DNA of 64,000 nucleotides from Spirochaeta thermophila DSM 6192 (GTDB taxonomy: Bacteria > Spirochaetota > Spirochaetia > Winmispirales > Winmispiraceae): positions 124,001-188,000 of the forward strand of contig NC_014484.1 in assembly GCF_000147075.1 (NCBI RefSeq). The letters run 5' to 3'. Of this stretch, positions 7,299-22,215 are shown piece by piece. The position numbers and the translations under genes were made by a program. Position 1 is the first letter of the stretch. The number at the start of each line of letters is the position of its first letter. The notes under the pieces were generated by a model that saw nothing but the letters and a program-made list of their open reading frames with translations, was not told the origin of the DNA and made no database searches.

Positions 7299-8303
7299 TC
7301 ATTCCTCCTCGTGGAGGATCTCTTCCGGATGCCGTTCGAAGTACGCGGATAGCAGGCGTTCGATCTCTGTGAGGGAATCGGCCTTGAGGATCGCGGAGAG
7401 GAGCGTGTGCCCGAAGAAGAGGTTCCTCGTGTAGTACCTGAAGAATCTCCTCGCCCTGGAGAGGTGGAACTCGGGGGGTTGGTGGCGGGAGAGAAGCTCC
7501 AGGAAGGAACGGGCGGCCTCCTCGAGATTCACGGTGAACGGTTCTCTCTCTCCTCGGTCCCGCGACCGGAGGTAGGCGAAGAACCACGGGGCCTGGACGG
7601 CCTTTCGTCCGATCATGATGCCTGCGAGGCCCGGTATCTCCTCCCTCCTCTTCCGGTACACATCGAAAGAGGTGATGTTTCCGTTTCCCACCACGGGTAT
7701 CGGGATCTCCTCGAGGAGGGGAGGGATGAGGTCCCAGCGTGCGGGCCGGTCGTGTTTCTCCTTGAGGCCCTTGGGGTGTACGGTGATGAAGGAGAGGCCC
7801 TGTCCCATGAGTCCCTGGAGGAAGGCGATGAATTCCTCGAGAGGGAGGGATTCCGGGATGCGGATCTTCACGGAGAGGGAGAGGTGAGGGGGAAGGACCC
7901 TGCGGACTTCCCCCACGAGGCGTACGGCCTCTTCTCCTCTGAGGAGCCATCCTGCACCGCCTCCCCGCTTGCGTATCTCAGGGGCGGCGCACCCCATGTT
8001 GATATCCACCCCCAGGATCGGGTACTCCGCGAGGATCCCGGCCGCCTGTACGAGGGAGTCCGTGTCGTAACCCACGAGCTGGACGATGGTGCGCGACGGG
8101 TCCGGAGAGAAGTCGAGATAGAAACGCTCGTAGGGTCCCTTCGAGAGGAGACCGGGAGCGCTTATCATCTCCGTGGCGTAGACGCTGCATCCTCCCCATG
8201 TGTGGAGGAGGGCCCTGAATCCGGAATGGGTGAGTTCCGCCATGGGTGCGAGGAAGAGGGGGAACTCCCCGTTAAGCGGGAACAGGGAAGGATTTGTTTG
8301 CAT
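7299..8303 (-). CDS. tRNA-dihydrouridine synthase family protein
   Basis: The 334-residue protein belongs to the FMN-dependent Dus family, which reduces specific uridines in tRNA using NADPH. Visible family marks are the N-terminal [20 protein letters not shown] (phosphate/FMN loop), QLVGYD, and [19 protein letters not shown], whose Cys is the catalytic acid. VVGNGNI and [14 protein letters not shown] lie in the C-terminal half of the barrel. Dus enzymes usually have SDP or NMGCP; here it is NMGCAAPE, a mild variation. The ATG at 8303 has GGGGG about 8 bases upstream. It is divergent from the chemoreceptor gene with 53 bases between. Which tRNA position it modifies cannot be told. Confidence 0.88.
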
Positions 8304-8326
8304 CTTGTCCCCCTTTCTGCTACTAT
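8298..8326 (+). promoter_or_regulatory. Candidate promoter for the chemoreceptor-cyclase pair
   Basis: TTGCAT and TACTAT are separated by 17 bases in the divergent gap. The -35 box lies inside the first codons of the opposing dus gene. Predicted transcription start is near 8333, leaving a short leader with AAGGAG before the ATG at 8357. On the minus strand TATAGT (8327-8322) could serve dus. Confidence 0.45.
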
Positions 8327-8356
8327 AAGAATTGTGACTTTAGTAAGGAGAAGGGA

Positions 8357-10546
8357 ATGCTGCAAGTAGGGCTGCTCGTTGCCGGTATCGTCCTTGGTGG
8401 GGGGATGGCCTTCTTCCTGCTCAAGGGGAGGATGGGGAAAGGGGTAGGGAACACGATGCGTCTTCTCTCGGTGGTGGAGGATGCCCTGGAGGAGATCTCT
8501 CAGGGGAATCTCGAGACATCGATCCGACTGTCGAGGGACGGGAATCTCAAGGCCACGCCCGGGCCTCTCAGGCCGATCCAGACCCGCCTCTTCAGGCTCG
8601 TCCGGGAGGTCAACAGGATCACCGGAGAGCCGCTCCACCGGATCTTCTATGTGGGGAGCGATCTGTTCCTGGAGGGTATTACCTGCGCAGAGGACATCGG
8701 CGGCAGACTCGGCGGGAGAGGCAAGGTGGCCCTCTTCGCCCGTTCTCCCCGCCACGTGGGAAACATGCTCAGGGTTCAGGGATTCCGGAACATCTCGGGC
8801 CTGAGGTTCCCCGATCTCGAGATCCTCGGTCCGTTCTTCACCGGGGGTACGGTGGAGGATGCCGTGAGGTCGGTTCGAGAGGTGCTTCGCGCGCATCCCG
8901 ACGTGGCGGCCCTCTATTGCGCAGACGAGACGTCGCCCGAAGGTGTGTGCAGGGCCGTGAAGGAGGCGGGGAGGAAGGATCTCTATCTCGTGGTACACGA
9001 ACTCAGGGATGCCCTCATCCCCTATTTCGAAGACGGGACCCTCGACGTGGCCATGGACCAGGATCTCTTCTTCCAGGGCTACAATACCGCGGTGCACCTC
9101 TTCAACTACGTTGTCCACTCCTGGAGGCCCGCCTCTTCGCACATCCCCACCACGGTGGACCGGGTGACCAAGGAGAACTTCCGGGATTTCTGGGAACCGG
9201 GCAAGGGGGTGAGGATCTCCAAGGAGCGTCTCGCGCGGAGGGCCGAGCCCATGGGACCGGCGGACAGGCCGGTGAAGATCCTGTTCATAGGAGACGAACG
9301 ATACGAGGTCTTCGAGCAGATCAAACAGGGGGTCTCCCAGGTGGCCGAGGTCCTCTCCGGCTACAACGCCGAGGTGGAGTGGGCGTGTCCTCCCGCCCAC
9401 CGGGTGAGGGGAGGGAAGATGCTCTCCGCATACGAGCTCATCCCCTACATCAAGGAAAAGATCGCCGAGACCTCTCCCGACGCCCTCGCGGTCACCGTGA
9501 AGGACCGCAGGATCTTTCCCTTCCTCAACCACCTGGCGCATGAGGGGCTCCCCATCGCCACGTACAACACCGAGCCTCTCACGGTTCGAGGGCTGCTCTA
9601 CGGCATCTCCGAGACCGCGCAGGATCTCTTCGGTCTCAGCACGGTGCTCGCACAGGGAACGGAGGAGTCGGATCTCGCCATGAGGGAGATCCAGAGCGCC
9701 ATCACCGAGGTCGCCGAGAGCGTGGAGTCGCAGCAATCCACGGTGCAGAAGGGTGCCGAGGCGGTCTCGCACCTCATGGGGTCCATCCAGCGTGTGAGGG
9801 AGGGCGTGGACAGACAGGTGGAGGCGGTGGATGCCTCCAGCGCCCTGCGCGGGGACCTGCGGGATGCGGTGCGTACCCTCGGCCACCAGGTGGACAGGCT
9901 CACCCATGTGAGGGAGAAGATGAGCGAGGTGGTGGGGAGGATGGAGGAACTGGGTGGGTTCTCCCAGACCATAGGAGAGGTGGTGGCTTCCATAGAGAAC
10001 GTGGCGGTGCGCACGAACCTCCTCGCCCTCAATGCAGCCATCGAGGCCGCACATGCGGGGGAGGCCGGGAAGGGTTTCGCCGTGGTGGCGGAAGAGGTGC
10101 GCAAGCTCGCCCAGCAGTCGGGGGTGGAGAGTTCCAGGATCGCGCAGATCGTCGCCCAGATACAGGAGCAGGTGGGCCTCACCTCGGCCTCCATGGAGGA
10201 ACTCTCCGGCGAGATACAGGAGCAGATGGGGAGTCTCTCGTCGCTCATGGAGAGCTTTCAGGTCCTCATCGGGAAGTTCCTCGATTCGGTGGAACGGGTC
10301 TCCGAAGTGATAGAGGAAAACAAGCGGCAGGCCGACCTTATGGATCGGGACGCCCAACAGGTGAACACCATGATAGACGAGGTGGTGGCGGTGAGCGAGC
10401 AGAACCGGGCGGCCACCGAAGAGGTCTCGGCCGCCATCCGGGAGCTTTTCGCCCAGATGGGGAGCATCCGGGACATGGCCCGTCAGCTCGCCGGTACGGC
10501 GCAAGCCCTGAAAGGTGCCATCGTCCAGTTCATGTCCTGGAGGTAG
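8357..10546 (+). CDS. Chemoreceptor with rearranged periplasmic-binding-protein fold
   Basis: The 729-residue protein has one N-terminal TM helix (about 3-20) followed by KGRMGK and a HAMP-like stretch ([16 protein letters not shown]). Residues about 80-290 resemble the second half of LacI/ribose-binding proteins: [10 protein letters not shown], then [20 protein letters not shown]. Residues about 312-430 resemble the first half of that family ([20 protein letters not shown], then [13 protein letters not shown]). The rest is a signalling hairpin with [20 protein letters not shown] at about 550-570. No second TM helix is seen, so the binding domains appear to face the cytoplasm. The ATG at 8357 is preceded by AAGGAG. 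It probably senses a sugar-like or nucleoside ligand. The cyclase gene follows 13 bases later. Confidence 0.88.
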
Positions 10547-10559
10547 GAGTGAGGTCCGC

Positions 10560-12221
10560 GTGAGCATACGGATAAAGGTGGTGCTCGTCATCATCCCCAT
10601 CCTCGTGCTTTCGCTCTTGATCGCAGGGCTCTCGTCATACTTCTTCGCCACATCCGGTATCACCAGGATCGCGAGGGAATTCCTCGGTTTCAAGGCCGAT
10701 GAGCTGGAGAAGTACATGCTCACACAGTGGCAGGTGCTGGTGGAGAGCGGACTCTCCGACAGGCCCGAGATGCGGGCTGCCACGCAGGAGGGGATGGCTT
10801 CGTTCGCCGCCACCCTCATAAGGAGTACCACTGAGCTCATCCTCGCCGTCGACGGCGACGGTGCGCTCGCCTTCTCCACTTCCCCGGTGGAGCTGACTCC
10901 GGAAGAGTGGGACACGATACGGGAGGTCTTCGAGACCGGGAGGGCGGAAGGGTTCTTCACCCTCAGGCTGGGGGATACGGAACGCGTGGGAAGGGGATTC
11001 TTCTTCGAACCCTTCTCCTGGTATGTGGTCCTCACCGAGGCGCGGACTACCTTCTACCAGGATGTGGAGAAGATCACCACCCAGACGATCTACATCGTGG
11101 CGGGAAGTATCCTGTTCGCCTCGCTCCTCGTGTTCTTCTTCGTGGGGTATCTCCTGCGCCCCCTCTCCCGGGTGGTCTCCACCATGCAGGGGATCATCGC
11201 ATCCACCGATCTCTCCCAGCGGGTGCCGGTGGAATACCACGACGAGATAGGTGAGCTCTCACACACCTTCAACCTCATGGTGGAGGGACTGGATCGGGCC
11301 TATACGAGCATCAAGAACTACGCCATGGAGGCGGTGGTCGCCAGACGCAACGAGATGAAGATCCGCAACATCTTCCAGAAGTACGTGCCGCAGGACATCA
11401 TCGACCAGTTCTTTGAGCATCCCGAATCCATGCTGGTGGGCGACAACCGGGTGCTCGCGGTGCTCTTCTCCGACATCCGAAGTTTTACGACTATCTCGGA
11501 GGGTATGCCTCCCGACGAACTGGTCGAGGCCCTCAACCGCTACTTTGCCCTCATGGTGGACATCATCACCGCCCGCAACGGGATCGTAGACAAGTACATA
11601 GGGGACGCCATCATGGCCTTCTTTGGTGCCCCGGTGAAGCGGCCGGACGACGGATACAACGCGGTGCTGGCTGCAATAGAGATGACGGAGAAGGTGAAGG
11701 AGTTCAATCAGCGGCAGATCGAGGAGGGGAAGCCCGAGTTCCGGATAGGGGTGGGGATCAACTACGGCCTGGTCACCGTGGGAAACATAGGGTGCGAGAA
11801 GAAGATGGACTACACGGTGATCGGGGACATGGTGAACCTCGCCTCCCGTCTGGAAGGACTCACGAAGTACTATCATCAGGAGATCGTCATATCGGAGAGC
11901 CTCTTCCGAAAGGTGGAGGGGAAGCTTCCGGTGAGGCTCCTCGATACCGTGGCGGTGAAGGGGAAACACCGGGGGGTGCGTATCTACACGGTGAAGCGAG
12001 AGCTCTCGCCACGGCAGGAGGAGATCTGGAAGCTGCACAACGAGGGGATGGAGCTCTACTATGCGAGGCGGTTCGACGAGGCAGCCGTGCTCTTCCAGCG
12101 GATCCTGGAGCTCGATCCCCAGGACTATCCCGCGCAGATGCTCTCCAGGCGGTGCAGGCTCTATGTCGTGGAACCGCCTCCTCCCGACTGGGACGGGGTG
12201 GAGAAGATGCTGGTGAAGTGA
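10560..12221 (+). CDS. Membrane-bound class III adenylate cyclase with TPR tail
   Basis: The 553-residue protein has TM1 (about 8-28), an extracytoplasmic single-Cache-like region, TM2 (about 178-200), HAMP, a cyclase homology domain (about 295-475) and a C-terminal TPR-like repeat (about 495-530). Metal-binding Asp residues lie in LFSDIRSF and in YIGDAIMAFFG. The Lys in DKYIGD and the Asp in KMDYTVIGD are the adenine-specifying pair. Asn and Arg in NLASRLE complete the active site, so cAMP is the expected product. The GTG at 10560, behind AGGTAGGAGTGAGG, fits best; the longer frame overlaps the receptor gene. It probably shares a transcript with the upstream receptor. Presence of a cAMP target protein was not seen in this window. 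Confidence 0.9.
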   Translation: MSIRIKVVLVIIPILVLSLLIAGLSSYFFATSGITRIAREFLGFKADELEKYMLTQWQVLVESGLSDRPEMRAATQEGMASFAATLIRSTTELILAVDGDGALAFSTSPVELTPEEWDTIREVFETGRAEGFFTLRLGDTERVGRGFFFEPFSWYVVLTEARTTFYQDVEKITTQTIYIVAGSILFASLLVFFFVGYLLRPLSRVVSTMQGIIASTDLSQRVPVEYHDEIGELSHTFNLMVEGLDRAYTSIKNYAMEAVVARRNEMKIRNIFQKYVPQDIIDQFFEHPESMLVGDNRVLAVLFSDIRSFTTISEGMPPDELVEALNRYFALMVDIITARNGIVDKYIGDAIMAFFGAPVKRPDDGYNAVLAAIEMTEKVKEFNQRQIEEGKPEFRIGVGINYGLVTVGNIGCEKKMDYTVIGDMVNLASRLEGLTKYYHQEIVISESLFRKVEGKLPVRLLDTVAVKGKHRGVRIYTVKRELSPRQEEIWKLHNEGMELYYARRFDEAAVLFQRILELDPQDYPAQMLSRRCRLYVVEPPPPDWDGVEKMLVK

Positions 12222-12240
12222 AAAATCAGAGAGAACGTAC

Positions 12241-12246
12241 TATACT
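12241..12246 (+). promoter_or_regulatory. -10 box upstream of the barrel/lipoprotein cluster
   Basis: TATACT lies 9 bases before the ATG at 12255 and 17 bases after a weak GTGAAA (12218-12223) that overlaps the end of the cyclase gene. A start at about 12253 would leave almost no leader, and no Shine-Dalgarno site is present. Confidence 0.4.
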
Positions 12247-12254
12247 TGAGTGTG

Positions 12255-13346
12255 ATGAGGATGCGTAAGGCCCTGCTGACGATGGTAGGGATGCTCTGGG
12301 GCGTGTCCGTCCTCTCCGCCGTGCCCCAGGTCAGGCTCGAAGAGCCCGTCGTGGAGGAGCTGGACTTGTCCCCGGAACTCGTGGTGAAGGCCCTCGTCGC
12401 TTCGCTGGAGGCGAGGGAGGTGCTGGTGGAGGATGATGCGGGTTACGTGCTCACGACGAGGGTGTGGGGCGGAGGGAGACGGGGCGTGATCGCGTTCCGG
12501 CTCTACGTGGAGAAAGGAGAGACGAGGAGTCTCGTGGCGGCCGTGGTGGCCTCCTTCCCTCTCAACCTCTCCTTCTACGCCGAGGTGGACAGGGCCGTTG
12601 AGGATCTCCTGCACCGGTGGCTGAGCCGTTTTCCGGAGGTGGCTGCCCCTGAAGATGCGGTCTTCCCGGTGGAGGTGAGGGGACCGGACGAGGGTGCGGT
12701 GGTGAAGGTAGGGGATGTGGTGCTCGGGACCATCGAGGAGGGGGTGCTCGTGGGGGATCCGTTCAGGGTGGTGCTGGGAAGCAGGGTGAAGCTCACCGTG
12801 GAGAAGGAGGGCTACTTCCCGAGGGATGTGGAGGTGGTGATCGAGGAGAGTCCCGTGGTGGTGGAGCTCCCCCCCCTTCTCCGACAGCATCGCTTCGAGG
12901 TGGGGCTCTTCAGCACGCTCGGCCAGCTGAAAGGGGCGGGGGTGGAGGCACGGTGGTACGCCCTGCCGGATCAGGTCTTCGCAGGGCTCAGGGAGTACGT
13001 CTATGGAGAGGGAGGCGGCCGGTGGTGGATGCCCGAGGTGGTGTTCCGCAGCCAGACCGAGGTGGTGGCCGGGGCGTACCTCGTGGGAGGGGTGAGCTCG
13101 GCCGTGCGGCTGTGGATGGAGACTGGTATCGGAGGGTACCTCTCGTTCGTGGAGGGGATGCCGTTCGATCTCTACTACCACCTCATCGGGCTGGGGGTGG
13201 AGTGGGTGGTGAGGCCCGGATGGGCCCTGTATGCACGCACGGGGTACGACTATGCCGCGGGCACCGGGCTTCTGCCCCAGGGCGGGCTCTTTCTGTATCC
13301 CAAGGGAGGGCCTGCACTTTCTGTGGGAGTAGGTTACCGATGGTAG
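12255..13346 (+). CDS. Secreted protein with PEGA-like domain and barrel-like C-terminus
   Basis: The 363-residue product begins with a signal peptide (RMRKALLTMVGMLWG, cleavage near LSA). An N-terminal alpha/beta domain runs to about 130. A PEGA-like segment with KLTVEKEGYFPRDVEV follows at about 175-200. The C-terminal half alternates Gly- and aromatic-rich strands and ends ALSVGVGYRW, with a terminal aromatic residue as in outer-membrane barrels. I do not recognise a named family. Starts at TTG 12246, GTG 12252 or ATG 12261 are also possible; none has a Shine-Dalgarno site. The next gene overlaps by 7 bases. It forms the first member of a barrel/lipoprotein pair repeated once downstream. 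Outer-membrane location is an inference. Confidence 0.7.
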   Translation: MRMRKALLTMVGMLWGVSVLSAVPQVRLEEPVVEELDLSPELVVKALVASLEAREVLVEDDAGYVLTTRVWGGGRRGVIAFRLYVEKGETRSLVAAVVASFPLNLSFYAEVDRAVEDLLHRWLSRFPEVAAPEDAVFPVEVRGPDEGAVVKVGDVVLGTIEEGVLVGDPFRVVLGSRVKLTVEKEGYFPRDVEVVIEESPVVVELPPLLRQHRFEVGLFSTLGQLKGAGVEARWYALPDQVFAGLREYVYGEGGGRWWMPEVVFRSQTEVVAGAYLVGGVSSAVRLWMETGIGGYLSFVEGMPFDLYYHLIGLGVEWVVRPGWALYARTGYDYAAGTGLLPQGGLFLYPKGGPALSVGVGYRW

Positions 13347-14299
13347 GACGCGCACGTTCCATAGCATGGGGGCTCCTGGTCTCCTTCCTGCTCGGGACGG
13401 CCTGCTCGCTCTTTGAGCTTTCCCGGTTTCCGTTCTACGACCGGTGGGCCGAGGAGGGCGTGGACCTCGGGGCGTACCTGGAGGACTTTGGTGCCACTCC
13501 GTTCTATGAACACTACGAGGCGGTCTTCACGGTATCGGACGGGCCCTCTTCGAGGTATGTCGTGCTCGGGATACGAGAGAAGAACGGGATGAGGGGCAGG
13601 CTCTTCGTGATGGACGGATCGCTCCGCATCAGACGGGTGCTGGATGCCGAGGATGTGGAGGAGCCCGAGCGGTTCTACGGGAGGCCCTTCGTGGATGCCT
13701 CGGACAAGGTGGTGTTCGGGGACTACTGGATCGATCCCGAGGGGAGCGGGGATCCCGAGCTGATCCAGGGGGGGACGTACCTGGAAGGGAAGCGGTTCTG
13801 GGGGGAAGAGGGAGGGAGCCTCTACAACTACAGGCTATGGGGGGACGGTACCGATCTCCACATAGAGGTGTGCGCTGAGAACTGGGGGGCTTCCACCACG
13901 TATACCATGTCATTCGACTGGGATGTACGAGAGGGATGGAGGGTGAAGGACCGCGTCGTCCTGGAGTGCGAGAAGGAGGGGGAGCGCCGTTTTCTCATAC
14001 TGCCGTTCGATTCGTATACCTCATGGACCTCTCCTCTGTTCGACAACTATCCATGGTTTCCCCTTCCCTTCGAGGGCTACGACGGTGCGGTCTCGGTGAC
14101 CGAGGAGGGTATCCTCGTCTCGAAGTGGGAGGAGGACGTGCGCATCCACGAGCGGTACAACATTGAAGGTGAGTTCGTGGACTCTGCCGAGATGCCGTGG
14201 GACTACGAGGTGTTCTGGGCCTATGCCCCCACGGGCGATGCCCTCTACGTCTTCGATCCCGTGCTCAAGAAGGTCTTCAGGGGGCCGGTGTGGTGGTGA
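13340..14299 (+). CDS. Putative lipoprotein, paired with upstream barrel-like protein
   Basis: The 319-residue product carries a lipoprotein signal (ARSIAWGLLVSFLLGTAC), so Cys22 or so is the anchor. The mature protein is rich in short beta strands and aromatic residues (YDRWAEEG, RYVVLGIREKNG, DYWIDPEG), with repeated blade-like segments that suggest a propeller. No family is recognised. The ATG at 13340 overlaps the end of the previous gene by 7 bases; a longer in-frame extension is in the shadow of that gene. Its stop overlaps the next start in a GTGA arrangement, so the four genes are translationally linked. Confidence 0.7.
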   Translation: MVGRARSIAWGLLVSFLLGTACSLFELSRFPFYDRWAEEGVDLGAYLEDFGATPFYEHYEAVFTVSDGPSSRYVVLGIREKNGMRGRLFVMDGSLRIRRVLDAEDVEEPERFYGRPFVDASDKVVFGDYWIDPEGSGDPELIQGGTYLEGKRFWGEEGGSLYNYRLWGDGTDLHIEVCAENWGASTTYTMSFDWDVREGWRVKDRVVLECEKEGERRFLILPFDSYTSWTSPLFDNYPWFPLPFEGYDGAVSVTEEGILVSKWEEDVRIHERYNIEGEFVDSAEMPWDYEVFWAYAPTGDALYVFDPVLKKVFRGPVWW

Positions 14300-15471
14300 G
14301 AGACGGACTTCGCCGGCTGGGTGCGGTGGTTCTCTTCTGTGTGCTGGCCGGCGGTATGTGGGGACAGACGGTGCGGGTGGCCGTCTACGCCGATCCCGAG
14401 GTGCACGAAGCCCCCATCTGGTACGAGGAGACGCTCGCGCTTCTCACCTCCTACTCATGGGTGGCAGTCGAGGAGGCCGGTTCTCTTCCTCCCGGCTGGC
14501 GTGACGATGCGAAGCGACGGGGGGTCTCGGCGGCGCTCCTCATCACCGCGGAAGATGACGCCCTCCGCTACCGCGCCTACCGGTTCGACACGGAGGAAGA
14601 GGTCTTCGACTTTCGAGTGGATACGGCCGTCTCTTCTCCCCTGGTGGTGAAGGCCCGGCTCTCTCCCCTCAAGGAAGCCCTGGACGGACTCGATGCCCGC
14701 TTCAGGGGTGTGCATGACCTGGCCACGAAGGGTGAGGGGATGCTCGTCGTGGAGGCGGTGCCGGGGACGCTTCTCGAGGGGATCTTCACCGATCCGGTGG
14801 AGGTGGGGGAGGAGGGGGTGATACGGTTCAGGTTGCCCGCTCCTTCCACCTACGTGGTGAGGGGGCTCCGGGAGGGCTATACCACCGAGGAGACGGTGGC
14901 CGTGCTGCGGGTGGGGGAGGAGACGAGGGTGGTGCTTCCTCAGGAGCGGGTCGTGGGGGTGGTCACCGGCGTGAACCTCCAGTATTTCCAGTTTCCCGGG
15001 TGGTCGATCATGTACGAGGTGGTCCCCGACTGGTTCTCGGCGGGAGGGGGGGTGGATTGGTACGGTGTGGGGCTCTACCTCCCCGAGCGTCCGTGGGAGA
15101 GCGACCGGCAGGCGGGCTTCGTCTCCTTTGCCCTCATCGAGCCCTGGATCGGCCTGCGGACCACCTTCATTCGCTGGAGGAGCGGGGTATCCCTCTTCGG
15201 TGCTATGCGCGTGTTCCTCCGGGTGGTGTACCCCGAGGGGTTATGGGGGATCGATCCGGTGGCTCCGGGTGGTGTGGTCCTCGGAAGCGGGATCAGGTTG
15301 CCGCTTTCCCGAAGGTGGGCGATGGTGGTGGAAGGGGGCCTCTCCGCCTACATGACGAAGAATCGACTGTTGTTCTACGAGATGTTGGGGGAAGAGGCGG
15401 AACAGGCGGAGGACATCGCCAGGAGTATCTTCCGGCCGGGGATGAAGGCCGGGGTGGAGGTGACATGGTGA
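14296..15471 (+). CDS. Second secreted barrel-like protein of the cluster
   Basis: About 391 residues from the GTG at 14296 that overlaps the previous stop (GTG at 14290 or 14293 are alternatives). A signal peptide is evident (RRLGAVVLFCVLAGGMWGQ). An N-terminal alpha/beta domain reaches about 135. A PEGA-like stretch follows (YVVRGLREGYTTEETVAV, about 190-210). The C-terminal half has many short aromatic strands and ends GVEVTW. The domain order matches the gene at 12255, so the two look like ancient duplicates although their sequences differ strongly. The next gene overlaps by 7 bases. Function unknown; an outer-membrane or surface role is inferred. Confidence 0.68.
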   Translation: MRDGLRRLGAVVLFCVLAGGMWGQTVRVAVYADPEVHEAPIWYEETLALLTSYSWVAVEEAGSLPPGWRDDAKRRGVSAALLITAEDDALRYRAYRFDTEEEVFDFRVDTAVSSPLVVKARLSPLKEALDGLDARFRGVHDLATKGEGMLVVEAVPGTLLEGIFTDPVEVGEEGVIRFRLPAPSTYVVRGLREGYTTEETVAVLRVGEETRVVLPQERVVGVVTGVNLQYFQFPGWSIMYEVVPDWFSAGGGVDWYGVGLYLPERPWESDRQAGFVSFALIEPWIGLRTTFIRWRSGVSLFGAMRVFLRVVYPEGLWGIDPVAPGGVVLGSGIRLPLSRRWAMVVEGGLSAYMTKNRLLFYEMLGEEAEQAEDIARSIFRPGMKAGVEVTW

Positions 15472-16499
15472 CGGATCGGCACCGGGTATCGGCAGCTCTT
15501 TTCTCATTCCTGGTGATCACGGGGTGTATGCTTCCGCCGTACGACGAGGATCTCCTCCTCACCCTCTTTGTCCTCGATGGAAGACTGGAGAAGGTAGGGG
15601 AGACGGGGGTCGTGGGGGTCCTCTGGGATTCCTCCTACGAGGACCTCGCATACTTTCCGGAACGGGATGCGATCGAGAGGGGGGTGGTCCTGATGAGGGG
15701 GCGCGACCATGCACAGGTGAGGTGGATCTCAGGGAAAAAGAACCTCATGGACCAGGGTGTGCCTCCGGGGGTGGCTCGGGTGGTGATGGGTTCCTCCAAC
15801 GAGGAGCAGGCGCAGGCGTTCCTCCTCTACTACGATGGAGGAGGATGGTGGATCATGCCGGGAGAAAGGAATGGGGAGGGAGTCTCCTGGGGGAATCCCG
15901 AATCCCTCTCTTCCCTCTTCCCATCCGCAGGTGTTGTCGTGTACGGGGCGTTCGCCTCCTTCCAGGGGTCCCCTTCGGAACCGCTGTACGTCGCCCTCCT
16001 CTCCGGGGATGGAGCTGGCACCTACTACGAGCATGTGGCCACCGGGAGTGTGTGGGGGCTTTCTCCCTACGATGTGAACCTGGACTTGAGAGAGCTTGGT
16101 TCGTCGGGTATATCCCTTTCAAGGGTGTCCGGACCAGGAGTCTACCTCTTCGACGTGTTTCGATATGAGAGCTTCTTCCTGGGGCCGGGAGCTTCCTCTC
16201 TCCATGTGTGGTACGAGGAAGAAGGTGCGCTCCGAGAGAGGGATGTGCCGGTTGAGGGTGTGCCGCTTGAGGTGACGCCCTCGGGGTATCTCCTCACCTA
16301 TGAGGAATCGACCGGCGAGTTCCTCGTCTACGATTCCGCGTTCTCGCTCAAGGATCGGTTCTCAGCCGGACGTCTCTCACCTGCAGGGTGGTACGAGTGG
16401 GAGGGGAAGGAGGTCTTCTTCTTCTCCCTTCCCCACATCCTCCAGACGAAAGAGGGGGCTGCAGCCTTCTTCGAGGTATACGCCTATCCACTTGAGTGA
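15465..16499 (+). CDS. Second lipoprotein of the cluster
   Basis: The 344-residue product has a signal with LFSFLVITGC, giving a lipidated Cys near residue 19. The mature part begins MLPPYDEDLLLTLFVLDGRLEKV and continues with strand-rich, blade-like repeats (VWGLSPYDVNLDL, SSLHVWYEEEG, EFLVYDSAFSLKDRF). This resembles the overall texture of the lipoprotein at 13340. No family is recognised. The ATG at 15465 lies inside the previous stop region (ATGGTGA), so expression is coupled. The stop is only 4 bases from the end of the convergent coiled-coil gene, and no hairpin terminator is seen between them. Confidence 0.68.
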   Translation: MVTDRHRVSAALFSFLVITGCMLPPYDEDLLLTLFVLDGRLEKVGETGVVGVLWDSSYEDLAYFPERDAIERGVVLMRGRDHAQVRWISGKKNLMDQGVPPGVARVVMGSSNEEQAQAFLLYYDGGGWWIMPGERNGEGVSWGNPESLSSLFPSAGVVVYGAFASFQGSPSEPLYVALLSGDGAGTYYEHVATGSVWGLSPYDVNLDLRELGSSGISLSRVSGPGVYLFDVFRYESFFLGPGASSLHVWYEEEGALRERDVPVEGVPLEVTPSGYLLTYEESTGEFLVYDSAFSLKDRFSAGRLSPAGWYEWEGKEVFFFSLPHILQTKEGAAAFFEVYAYPLE

Positions 16500-16503
16500 T
16501 CGA

Positions 16504-18900
16504 TCATTTCCCCAGGAGGATTTTGAGCGCCTGGATCACCTCTCTGAGGAGAGAACCCTCCTCTGCCTCTTGTGCCTGCTCCTCCAGGAAATCGAGCCTC
16601 TCCTCACGCGAGGGGAGCACAGTGAGTGCCTCCACCAGGTCGATTACCTCGAGGAGTGCTGCCTCCCTTCCCGCCTTCTCGAAGGCCCGGTCGTACTCCT
16701 TGATCCGGGTGAGGAGTCCCGGAAAGGTGGCTTCCACCTCCGAAGAACCGAGGAACGCGTCGAGATATGACTTCGCCTCCACCCTCCCCTGCTCGCCGTA
16801 GCGGCTCAGGAGCTGATCCTCGCTCCGGGCATAGGAGGCATAGCCCCGACTCAGAGCCTCGAGTCGAGCCTCGGCTTCCTCGAGGGTTTCGATCCTGGCT
16901 TTGAGGGATGCGAGTTCCTCGTCCGTAGTGGCAGGTGGGCGTGCTTCGAGCTCTTCCTGTGCTGCTGCGAGTTGCCGGGTCAGTTCCTGGATCTTCACGG
17001 TGAGGGTGTCGTTCTCCTGGGTGAGCCGCTCTATCTCCCTTTGGAGCTGTGCTTCCTCTTCCGGCGGGAGGGTAGGCGTCTCCCGGGCCATGCGATCGCG
17101 TTCTTCCCTGAGGCGGGTGTTTTCGGATCTGAGTGCTTCGATCTGTTCTTCCAGGGACGAGATCTGCTCCATGAACCGGGCGGCCTCTCTCTCGTGGGCC
17201 GTGTCCTCCTGTTCCACCTGCCTGTTGTACGCCCGCATACTGCGGGTGAGACCCTCGAAGGCCTGCCTCCCCGCAGGTGTCCGGGAGAGACGGGAGAGGA
17301 TACGGGCATAGGCTTCCATGGCCGAGGGATAGTCTCCTTCGGCCTCCCGGCTCCGGGCCTGGGTGAGGAGGGTGGAGGCGGCATCCTCTCCTTCCCTCTC
17401 CACGCGGGCGAGGGCCGTGCGCCCCCCTATGTCGAGGAGCGAAGATACGAGGGCCTCCCTCCGGGAGGCGGGAAGCGGGAGATAGGTGAGGGCTTCCCTG
17501 TAGGCTGCGAGGGCCTCCTGATGGGATCCCCGCCGGTAGGCATCCTCCGCACGGGAGAGGGCGCTGGTGAGGGCCTCCCTACGGCGGGCTTCTTCCTCGC
17601 TCACCATCTGGAGGAGATACTCGTGACTCTCCTTGACGGCCGGGATCGCATCGAGCGCGGCGGTGTAGAGCTCCTCGGCCCTTGCCGTATCCCCGGAAGA
17701 GAGGGCCGTACGGGCCTGGGCGACGAGGTCCTCGATCCTCGAGAGGAGTCGGCTCTGGGCGAGGAGGGTGGCGGTGTCGAGGCGGGCCTGCTGTTCCTGC
17801 TCGATGAGCCTGGAGAGGGTCTCGGTAATGAAGAGGTCGATCTGCCTTCTGCCCGAGAGGGGGGTGAGTGCTGCGACCCGAGGCTGCGTGAGGAGGTCCT
17901 GAAGCGCGGTGAGGAGTTCGCGTGCCCGGCCGTACTCCTGGTTTTGGATGGCAGACCTGATCTCCCGGTAGAGGCCCAGGATCTGGTTCTCCACGGCCCG
18001 CGCCTCTTCCTCCATGCGGGAGAGACGTCCGAGTTCGGCCCTGGCCTCCTCGAGTGCGGTCTGCGCCTCCCTCGTCTGAGCCTGGAGGGCCTCGGTTCGG
18101 GCCTCGTACTGCCTCCGTAGTTCGGCCTCGCGCCGCTGGAACTCGGTCTGGAGGGTCTCCCGCTCCTGTGTGAGGCGGGTGAGGGTAGCCTGGTACTCCT
18201 CCCGGAGGCGGGTGATGGTCTCGAGGAGTCGCTGCCTTTCCTCCTCCGCCTCCTCCCTGAACCGGGCGAGTTCCTGCTCGAATTCCTGCTGCTTCTGGGC
18301 TTCGAACTCGGCAAGTCTGGTCTCTATCTGTTCCTCAGGTACACCGGCGGCCTGAAGGCGCTCTCTTTCCTTTGCCAGTTCAAGGGAGAGTTGCTCCCGG
18401 AGCTGGATCTCTTTCTCCCTGATGCGCTCCTCCATCTCGGTCTGGAGCTGTTCCTGCTGAGCCTGCAGTTCCTGAAGCCGTTTCTGGATTGAAGCGATCT
18501 CCTGCTCCTTTGCCCTGAGCTTCTCCTGGGCTTCCCGCTGGATCTCCTGGATGAGACGGGCCTCCACGGCGTTGATGGTTCCCCTGCCCGAGGCGATTTT
18601 CTCCTGCTCCTGTGTGGTGAGGTATCGGAAGCCGATGAAGGCGCCCGCGATGGCGAGGAGTGCCAACACATTGATGAGGAGCGGAAGGAACACTCCTCTT
18701 TTTCTCGCAGTGATACGGAAGGTGGTCTCGTCGACCCGGATACGCTCCTTTTCGACGATCTCCTCTATCTCTTTGAGGATTTCTTGCTCTTCCTCTTTGT
18801 TGAGAGTCGGTCGTCTTGTCTCCGAAGGACCGGTTTCCTCCATGATGATGAAGCCACCTTCCGCCCTATAGCGTTTCGCCCGTTCGAGAAGCCCGCCCAC
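16504..18900 (-). CDS. Membrane-anchored coiled-coil/TPR protein
   Basis: The 798-residue protein has a charged N-terminal cytoplasmic segment (about 1-68), one TM helix (VFLPLLINVLALLAIAGAFI, about 70-92) and then a very long Glu/Gln/Arg-rich coiled coil (about 95-320). TPR-like helices follow (AYRRGSHQEALAAYREAL, EGDYPSAMEAYARIL), then another coiled coil and a helical C-terminus. The start is a GTG at 18900 with GGGAG upstream; an internal ATG at codon 20 is an alternative. By topology the coiled coil would lie in the periplasm. No enzyme motif is seen. Such a long rod suggests a structural or spacer role in the envelope, but this is inference. It lies 120 bases downstream of a chemoreceptor gene on the same strand. 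Confidence 0.8.
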   Translation of the reverse strand: MGGLLERAKRYRAEGGFIIMEETGPSETRRPTLNKEEEQEILKEIEEIVEKERIRVDETTFRITARKRGVFLPLLINVLALLAIAGAFIGFRYLTTQEQEKIASGRGTINAVEARLIQEIQREAQEKLRAKEQEIASIQKRLQELQAQQEQLQTEMEERIREKEIQLREQLSLELAKERERLQAAGVPEEQIETRLAEFEAQKQQEFEQELARFREEAEEERQRLLETITRLREEYQATLTRLTQERETLQTEFQRREAELRRQYEARTEALQAQTREAQTALEEARAELGRLSRMEEEARAVENQILGLYREIRSAIQNQEYGRARELLTALQDLLTQPRVAALTPLSGRRQIDLFITETLSRLIEQEQQARLDTATLLAQSRLLSRIEDLVAQARTALSSGDTARAEELYTAALDAIPAVKESHEYLLQMVSEEEARRREALTSALSRAEDAYRRGSHQEALAAYREALTYLPLPASRREALVSSLLDIGGRTALARVEREGEDAASTLLTQARSREAEGDYPSAMEAYARILSRLSRTPAGRQAFEGLTRSMRAYNRQVEQEDTAHEREAARFMEQISSLEEQIEALRSENTRLREERDRMARETPTLPPEEEAQLQREIERLTQENDTLTVKIQELTRQLAAAQEELEARPPATTDEELASLKARIETLEEAEARLEALSRGYASYARSEDQLLSRYGEQGRVEAKSYLDAFLGSSEVEATFPGLLTRIKEYDRAFEKAGREAALLEVIDLVEALTVLPSREERLDFLEEQAQEAEEGSLLREVIQALKILLGK

Positions 18901-20790: not shown

Positions 20791-22215
20791 ATGAGAAAGA
20801 ATACCAAGATCATAGCGACGATCTCCGACAGTCGGTGCGACTTCTCCTTCATCAAAGCCCTCATCGAGGAAGGGGTGGACGCGTTCAGGCTCAACACCGC
20901 GCACCAGACACCCGAGACGAGCAAACGGGTGGTGGATGCGATCCGCAAGGTCTCATCCCATGTGGCGATCGTGCTCGATACCAAGGGCCCCGAGGTGAGA
21001 ACACGGCTCGGTGGGGCCCCGCTCGAGGTGCAGGAGGGAGATGTGGTATGGGTGGGGGGTGAACCTGTTGAGGATGCCCCCTGGTTCTCCACCTCGTACG
21101 AGCGGTTCGTCGAGGATGTGCCGGAAGGGGCGAGACTCCTCATCGACGACGGGGAGATCGGCCTCCTGGTGGAGGAGCGGAAGGCAGGTCGGCTGGTATG
21201 CAGGGTGGAGAACGAAGGGGTGGTCAAGGACAAGAAGAGCATCAACGTCCCGGGCGTGCACCTCTCGCTTCCGGCGCTCACCGGCAAGGACAGGGAATAC
21301 GTACGCTTCGCCGTGGAAGAAGGGGTGGACTACATCGCTCATTCCTTCGTGCGCAGCCGGGAGGATGTGGAGGAGGTGAGAGAGGCCCTCGAGAGGGCGG
21401 GAGGGGATGCCGGCACGGTGGGGATCATCGCCAAGATCGAGAACCGGGAGGGGGTGGACCACGCCGAGGGTATCCTCGACACATGTGACGGGCTCATGAT
21501 CGCGCGGGGAGACCTGGGGATAGAGATACCGGCCGAGGAGGTCCCGGCGATCCAGAAGAGGCTCATACGTCTGTGCATGGAGCGGGCGAAGCCGGTGATC
21601 ACCGCCACCCAGCTTCTCCACTCCATGATAGAGAACCCCCGGCCGACCAGGGCCGAGGTGACGGACATCGCCACCGCGGTGCTCGACGGTACGGACGCCC
21701 TCATGCTCAGCGGAGAGACTGCGTACGGCAAGTACCCCGTGGAGGCGGTGAAGACCATGGTGCGAGTGGCCTCCACGGCCGAGAAGATGAGGCCCGAGCT
21801 CCCTGAACACGACATCGTAGGCTATACCAACCCTGTGCGCTACTTCCTCTCGCAGGTGGCCATGAAGGCGAGCTACCGGCTTCCCATCGCGGCCATCATC
21901 GTGCATACCTACACCGGGAGGACCGCGAGGCTGGTGTCCTCTTTCAGGGGCAAGACACCGGTGTATGTCTTCTGCCATGATTCCCGCGTGGCCCGAAGGC
22001 TGGCCCTCTCGTATGGGGTGTACCCCCGGGTGATAGAACTTCCCGAGAGCACCGACGAGCTGGTGAAGGAGAGCATCTCCTCTCTCCTCACGGAAGGGGA
22101 TGTCCGTCCCGAGGATCTGGTGTTGATCCTCGCAGGATCCCCGCCGCATCAGAGCAACAGCTCGAACTTCCTGGAGATCAATACCGTCGCCACCTATCTC
22201 AAGGAGCGGGGATAG
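20791..22215 (+). CDS. pyk: Pyruvate kinase
   Basis: The 474-residue enzyme converts phosphoenolpyruvate and ADP to pyruvate and ATP. Motifs in order are MRKNTKIIATISDSR, FRLNTAH, VLDTKGPEVRT, the catalytic Lys in IIAKIENREG, ARGDLGIEIPAEEVP and MLSGETAYGKYPVEAV, with the usual C-terminal domain. The K+-site segment normally reads RxNFSH; here it is RLNTAH, so the Ser ligand is Ala, while D and T of DTKGPE are kept. A GGGAG precedes the ATG at 20791. The 165-base gap upstream is AT-rich (around 20725-20760) and probably carries the divergent promoters for pyk and the receptor, but no single pair of boxes is clearly best. Confidence 0.95.
   Translation: MRKNTKIIATISDSRCDFSFIKALIEEGVDAFRLNTAHQTPETSKRVVDAIRKVSSHVAIVLDTKGPEVRTRLGGAPLEVQEGDVVWVGGEPVEDAPWFSTSYERFVEDVPEGARLLIDDGEIGLLVEERKAGRLVCRVENEGVVKDKKSINVPGVHLSLPALTGKDREYVRFAVEEGVDYIAHSFVRSREDVEEVREALERAGGDAGTVGIIAKIENREGVDHAEGILDTCDGLMIARGDLGIEIPAEEVPAIQKRLIRLCMERAKPVITATQLLHSMIENPRPTRAEVTDIATAVLDGTDALMLSGETAYGKYPVEAVKTMVRVASTAEKMRPELPEHDIVGYTNPVRYFLSQVAMKASYRLPIAAIIVHTYTGRTARLVSSFRGKTPVYVFCHDSRVARRLALSYGVYPRVIELPESTDELVKESISSLLTEGDVRPEDLVLILAGSPPHQSNSSNFLEINTVATYLKERG

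Follow-up and report, generated by a model that had tools for sequence, protein, structure and literature searches.

A conserved spirochaete gene island of predicted barrel proteins, lipoproteins and a membrane cyclase suggests an envelope-spanning signal machine

Four overlapping genes of Spirochaeta thermophila DSM 6192, encoding in alternation predicted outer-membrane barrel proteins (A1 and A2) and lipoproteins (B1 and B2), form part of a conserved gene island together with an inner-membrane class III cyclase (CYC) and a convergently transcribed coiled-coil membrane protein (DN). The reading we prefer, to which we assign a probability of roughly 0.4, is that the A and B products would form an outer-membrane complex working with the neighbouring cyclase as a trans-envelope module. 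The anatomy of this system (the gene set and its linkage, the A1/A2 paralogy, the lipoprotein signals, the predicted folds of A1 and B1, the cyclase domains and the single transmembrane segment of DN) was computed and is well supported; we infer the signalling step.

The window analysed is a stretch of 64,000 nucleotides from a genome consisting of one contig of 2,472,645 bases. A preliminary description had covered positions 12255-16499, which are only the middle part of the island, and had missed the wider island with its cyclase and coiled-coil membrane protein. The features, in window coordinates, are as follows.

10560-12221, + strand: CYC, class III adenylate/guanylate cyclase of the inner membrane, directly upstream of A1
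12255-13346, + strand: A1, 363 residues, signal peptide, EGY at residues 185-187, ending in GYRW
12882-13343, + strand: predicted A1 barrel domain, residues 210-363 of the AlphaFold2 model
13340-14299, + strand: B1, 319 residues, lipobox-like LLGTAC, C-terminal WW
14296-15471, + strand: A2, 391 residues, GTG start, signal peptide, EGY within REGYTTEE, ending in EVTW
15465-16499, + strand: B2, 344 residues, strand-rich lipoprotein with VITGC near the N-terminus
16504-18900, - strand: DN, convergent gene for a single-pass coiled-coil/TPR membrane protein

The reading frames of A1, B1, A2 and B2 are all open at these coordinates on the same strand, and searches of Pfam and NCBIfam with their products gave no match at E values up to 1. 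The A1/B1, B1/A2 and A2/B2 junctions overlap by 7, 4 and 7 bases, respectively, which suggests translational coupling of the four genes. The earlier statement that all starts overlap the preceding stop applies to these three internal junctions but not to A1, which starts 33 bases past the CYC stop at 12221. A promoter-like site (GTGAAA, 17 nt, TATACT) was seen at 12218-12246 on the + strand, immediately 5' of A1, and the barrels may therefore lack co-transcription with the cyclase. The promoter scan gave five sites versus 1.5 in shuffled sequences, above expectation, and the terminator scan nine versus 8.6, close to the shuffles. A methyl-accepting chemotaxis protein is encoded at 8294-10546 (+ strand), 13 bases upstream of the CYC start; it carries a PF13407 periplasmic-binding-protein-like domain before the signalling domain and, by eye, one N-terminal hydrophobic segment, and a close copy (98.8% identity) is present in one relative (G001). 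A pyruvate kinase gene lies near CYC at 20791-22215 of the window and likewise beside CYC in a second relative (G002, locus L076), where the A-B unit has moved.

The common layout claimed for A1 and A2 (signal peptide, EGY and terminal Trp) was confirmed from the translations, with the signal peptides judged by eye. The AlphaFold2 model of A1, computed from 36 aligned sequences, had a mean pLDDT of 85.9 and a pTM of 0.65, with most of the barrel above 92. It comprises a TolB-D1/CsgG/PelC-like alpha/beta domain (residues ~22-125), a PEGA-like segment (~136-204) and an eight-stranded barrel (210-363; strands 214-222, 228-237, 241-252, 263-277, 284-297, 304-320, 323-334 and 354-362), so that the barrel proposed in the preliminary description is also obtained by structure prediction. 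By VIA alignment, the barrel matched that of OprF with a Z score of 17.6 (129 residues, 2.2 Å), OmpA with 16.1, NspA with 15.8 and OmpW with 15.4, while the N-terminal domain matched a DUF330 protein (Z 11.5), PelC (11.0), CsgG (10.9) and TolB D1 (~10). A1 is thus a predicted member of the small eight-stranded outer-membrane barrels of the OmpA/OmpW type; the structure matches of A1, like those of B1 below, speak to fold and not to function. Both A1 and A2 would reside in the outer membrane. The C-terminal residue is Trp or Tyr in 21 of the 36 A1 family members and Trp or Phe in 10 of 31 A2 family members, with Leu in 12 more. By homology to A1, A2 probably shares its architecture, from the signal peptide and alpha/beta domain through the PEGA-like segment to a barrel-like C-terminus. 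When solved structures were searched with the profiles of A1, A2 and B2, no clear sequence relative emerged. The PEGA model PF08308 matched neither A1 nor A2 of the window and was matched by two of the 36 A1 family members (best E value 5.6e-4). A PEGA-domain protein of Treponema pallidum is listed among its known and predicted outer-membrane proteins (PMC10600179) and has no known kinship to the unit. A SusC/SusD-type uptake complex was set aside on the strand number of A1, which is eight and not 22.

OmpA and OprF resemble A1 in barrel fold (Z 16-18) and in carrying a soluble domain on the same chain. They differ in that the extra domains of A1 are N-terminal and TolB-D1/CsgG- and PEGA-like, whereas the soluble domain of OmpA/OprF is the C-terminal, peptidoglycan-binding OmpA domain. 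The eight-stranded barrel is likewise common to A1 and to OmpW, OprG and NspA (Z ~13-16), and TP0126, TP0479, TP0698 and TP0733 of T. pallidum (PMC8407342) are eight-stranded barrels like A1 but consist of this single domain. These likenesses bear on a different explanation, in which the island is an uptake or surface-binding unit: the barrels would be OmpW-like channels and the lipoproteins their binding or capping partners, with the cyclase co-regulated or acting as a nutrient reporter and physically uncoupled. The matches of the A1 barrel indeed include OmpW, OprG and CarO besides OmpA, and published models show the single-domain T. pallidum barrels, which have no known kinship to the unit, as narrow channels (PMC8407342). 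Relative to such single-domain barrels, however, the A proteins add two periplasmic domains, the TolB-D1/CsgG-like domain and the PEGA-like segment, and they occur as two paralogues alternating with lipoproteins. We consider an uptake unit rather unlikely, also in view of the gene-order data described below.

Comparison of the A1 and A2 family profiles gave an alignment of 335 columns with a probability of 99.2% and an E value of 6.6e-20 (1.3e-18 when repeated with larger alignments). A1 and A2 formed one group each, with 100/100 support, in a tree built from 67 sequences; the duplication is therefore older than the sampled lineages. Judged by their sequences, A1 and A2 are ancient full-length paralogues. 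A recent tandem duplication was rejected, as BLAST detected no similarity between A1 and A2 or between B1 and B2 and the A1 and A2 groups are fully separate. When 393 genomes of the phylum were searched with the A1 profile, full-length matches were confined to the class of the window organism; those in other classes covered mainly the first ~160 positions, and three of these proteins, read individually, begin with a similar alpha/beta region and become rich in strands towards the C-terminus. Neither the A1 nor the A2 profile had a match in one genome of the set (G105). In a genome from another class (G196, locus L206) two adjoining genes each encode an alpha/beta start and a strand-rich C-terminus, with PEGA and B genes undetected.

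The genes following each barrel had been described as lipoprotein genes, and the alignments agree: the lipobox cysteine is invariant in 32 aligned B1 sequences (Cys22) and in 16 aligned B2 sequences (Cys21). The strict lipobox pattern fits 29 of the 32 B1 proteins, the LLGTAC of the window lying slightly outside the consensus, and 31 of the 32 end in WW. The B1 model (32 aligned sequences; mean pLDDT 82.7, pTM 0.80) has lower confidence in parts. Its best structural match was the Brat NHL propeller (Z 15.9, 247 residues, 4.2 Å); NHL and TolB propellers together gave Z scores of 12.4-15.9, the TolB propellers 12.4-12.9, and many other propellers matched too. B1 is therefore taken as a lipoprotein with a predicted beta-propeller. 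For B2, Pfam, NCBIfam and PDB sequence searches returned no clear match. Kinship of B1 and B2 went undetected: profile comparison gave 2% probability, later 50% over only 44 columns, and the two profiles had no common matches across the collected loci. Common ancestry of B1 and B2 thus found no support in BLAST, profile comparisons or common matches, though the two may share a propeller fold. Of the duplicated two-gene unit put forward in the preliminary description, the barrel half thus stands, in that the barrels are duplicates; a duplication of whole barrel-lipoprotein pairs is unproven.

An outer-membrane barrel combined with a propeller lipoprotein, encoded by overlapping genes, could also be read as a unit for outer-membrane assembly or for export of lipoproteins to the surface, with the propeller lipoproteins serving as BamB-like helpers of small barrels. 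This is highly improbable: eight strands are too few for a BamA-type insertase, which was rejected since the A1 model contains no POTRA region, and the neighbouring cyclase would be left unexplained.

The start of CYC was set by alignment of seven orthologues (53-64% identity). The protein matches PF00211 (E 6.4e-24, 85.0 bits against a cut-off of 21.9) and the HAMP model PF00672 (E 5.7e-10, 39.8 bits against a cut-off of 25), and is arranged as transmembrane segments, a periplasmic sensor of ~140 residues, HAMP, the cyclase domain and a short TPR-like tail. The sensor region is well conserved across the aligned orthologues; it has no Pfam match, and its profile found no solved relative in the PDB. 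DN has one hydrophobic segment only, with a cytoplasmic N-terminus, which would place its long coiled-coil/TPR region in the periplasm. Its matches to TPR models are weak. Homologues of DN were found with a coiled-coil query, so that scores may be inflated; we argue that they are genuine because the transmembrane motif K-x-G-x(3)-P-L-x-V/I-N is conserved in those listed (62 genes neighbouring CYC or the unit were collected) and their position is conserved too.

These properties of DN allow a Tol-Pal-style role in envelope maintenance, with A supplying a TolB-D1-like domain plus barrel, B a propeller lipoprotein and DN a TolA/CpoB-type bridge, the cyclase being regulator or regulated. Both folds of TolB (which acts with Pal), the D1 alpha/beta domain and the propeller, are found among the products of the unit, with the scores given above. 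DN has a transmembrane anchor, a coiled coil and TPR and may resemble TolA/CpoB, and the genome contains one ExbD/TolR-type gene. TolB_N (PF04052) had no match in the genome at E 0.001, while it did match in four of 41 genomes searched and in the controls, E. coli among them. On the other hand, TolB-D1 and propeller folds are common, B1 scores nearer to NHL propellers than to TolB, and the ExbD gene is far from the unit. TolB moreover carries both domains in one chain, whereas here they are on separate chains, the D1-like domain of A1 being fused to a barrel and the B1 propeller lipidated. On these grounds a Tol-Pal equivalent is judged improbable.

The search for the same unit in other spirochaetes, proposed in the preliminary description, was productive: the order A1-B1-A2-B2 recurs in dozens of genomes. 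When 60 relatives were searched with single sequences, A1 turned up in 12 genomes and A2 in 10, several times on one contig within a few kilobases of each other; such searches recognised B1 and B2 only in the closest three relatives. In the loci read directly, the order was A1-B1-A2-B2 and the B genes encode lipoproteins; in seven of these loci the gene preceding A1 is a cyclase of ~550 residues. Because the order and the lipobox cysteine recur in dozens of other spirochaete genomes, the A-B-A-B arrangement is not attributable to chance.

Further loci were collected from a species-level genome collection with the cyclase as bait (best 80 of 154 relatives; start codons in relatives chosen by script), which biases them towards cyclase-linked units. 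Downstream sequence reached 1.5 kb or more at 64 of these cyclase loci; A1 adjoins the cyclase in 40 of them, another island member (mostly DN alone) is within reach in 23 and none in one. In most loci with A1 next to CYC and enough contig, B1-A2-(B2) comes next and a convergent DN last; the commonest layouts were CYC-A1-B1-A2-DN (10 loci) and CYC-A1-B1-A2-B2-DN (nine loci), both with DN convergent. Whole genomes supplied additional instances of this linkage. The barrel-lipoprotein pairing of the preliminary description does not hold strictly everywhere: the orders CYC-A1-A2, A1-B1-B1 and A1-A2-B2-B1 occur, and many A2 genes have no detectable adjacent B2. One locus has the order CYC-DN-A1-A2-B2-B1 (L155), two have DN between CYC and an inverted unit (L108, L135), one has two B1 genes with A2 absent (L152) and two have B2 upstream of CYC on the opposite strand (L143, L168). 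Two loci (L138, L174) come from metagenome bins labelled Borreliella garinii and Treponema denticola; these names look wrong, as the sequences place among uncultured spirochaetes.

DN was nearby in 15 of the 17 cyclase loci scored as being without the barrel unit, a score that depends on flank length and profile sensitivity; CYC and DN accordingly look like the core pair. On the cyclase tree the label 'unit' needs four changes, compared with 15.3 in shuffles, indicating that the association of cyclase and unit is mostly inherited. Units away from the cyclase were revealed by the phylum profile search and by five genomes (G002, G007, G013, G017 and G036). The unit is ~90 kb from the cyclase in G002, and G007 has an A-B-A-B run at a large distance from it, whose B genes show lipobox motifs but have diverged beyond the reach of the profiles; the unit can thus exist without adjacency. 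In G013 the unit is present twice, on separate contigs (L034, L035), the second copy with a B2-like fragment just upstream of A1. That the A-B set can stand apart from the cyclase favours the uptake unit considered above, but a co-regulated transporter would not need to be kept with CYC and DN time and again as the genes rearrange. The content of CYC, DN, A and B kept despite rearrangement (L155, L108 and L135) counts instead for a joint module.

In the trans-envelope module that we prefer, the A proteins would be outer-membrane barrels whose TolB-D1-like and PEGA-like domains lie in the periplasm, and B1 and B2 would dock as partners held by lipid anchors. From its anchor in the inner membrane, DN would span the periplasm by its coiled coil and might act as a bridge. 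When a ligand, a load or envelope damage changes the outer membrane, this could be relayed to the sensor that the HAMP-cyclase has in the periplasm and alter cyclic-nucleotide synthesis, and the product could be read by cNMP-binding proteins, for which the genome has seven domain matches. The link between unit and cyclase is genomic only; the physical contacts, the direction of the signal and its stimulus are put forward as we would expect them. The most specific form of the proposal, a new kind of spirochaete trans-envelope signalling in which two barrels with TolB-like periplasmic domains and two lipoproteins, one or both of them propellers, control the cyclase together with an inner-membrane coiled-coil protein, is tentative and on balance doubtful.

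Control of an inner-membrane sensor by an envelope lipoprotein, as proposed here, has parallels in RcsF-Rcs and QseG-QseE (PMC11709261, PMC6075780). The output proposed here differs, being a HAMP-linked class III cyclase and not a phosphorelay or histidine kinase. In Leptospira kobayashii, light-driven cyclic-nucleotide synthesis is reported to change motility (PMC9043183).

No gene set of such composition was found described in the open-licence literature, and the conserved linkage suggests an undescribed envelope-spanning signal machine. Domains and likely partners can now be proposed for four families that have no Pfam or NCBIfam match. To our knowledge, how spirochaetes sense the state of their own unusual outer membrane is largely unknown. 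If the proposal is true, barrels and lipoproteins encoded beside a membrane cyclase would offer a concrete way, open to experiment, for the cell surface to feed into cyclic-nucleotide signalling.
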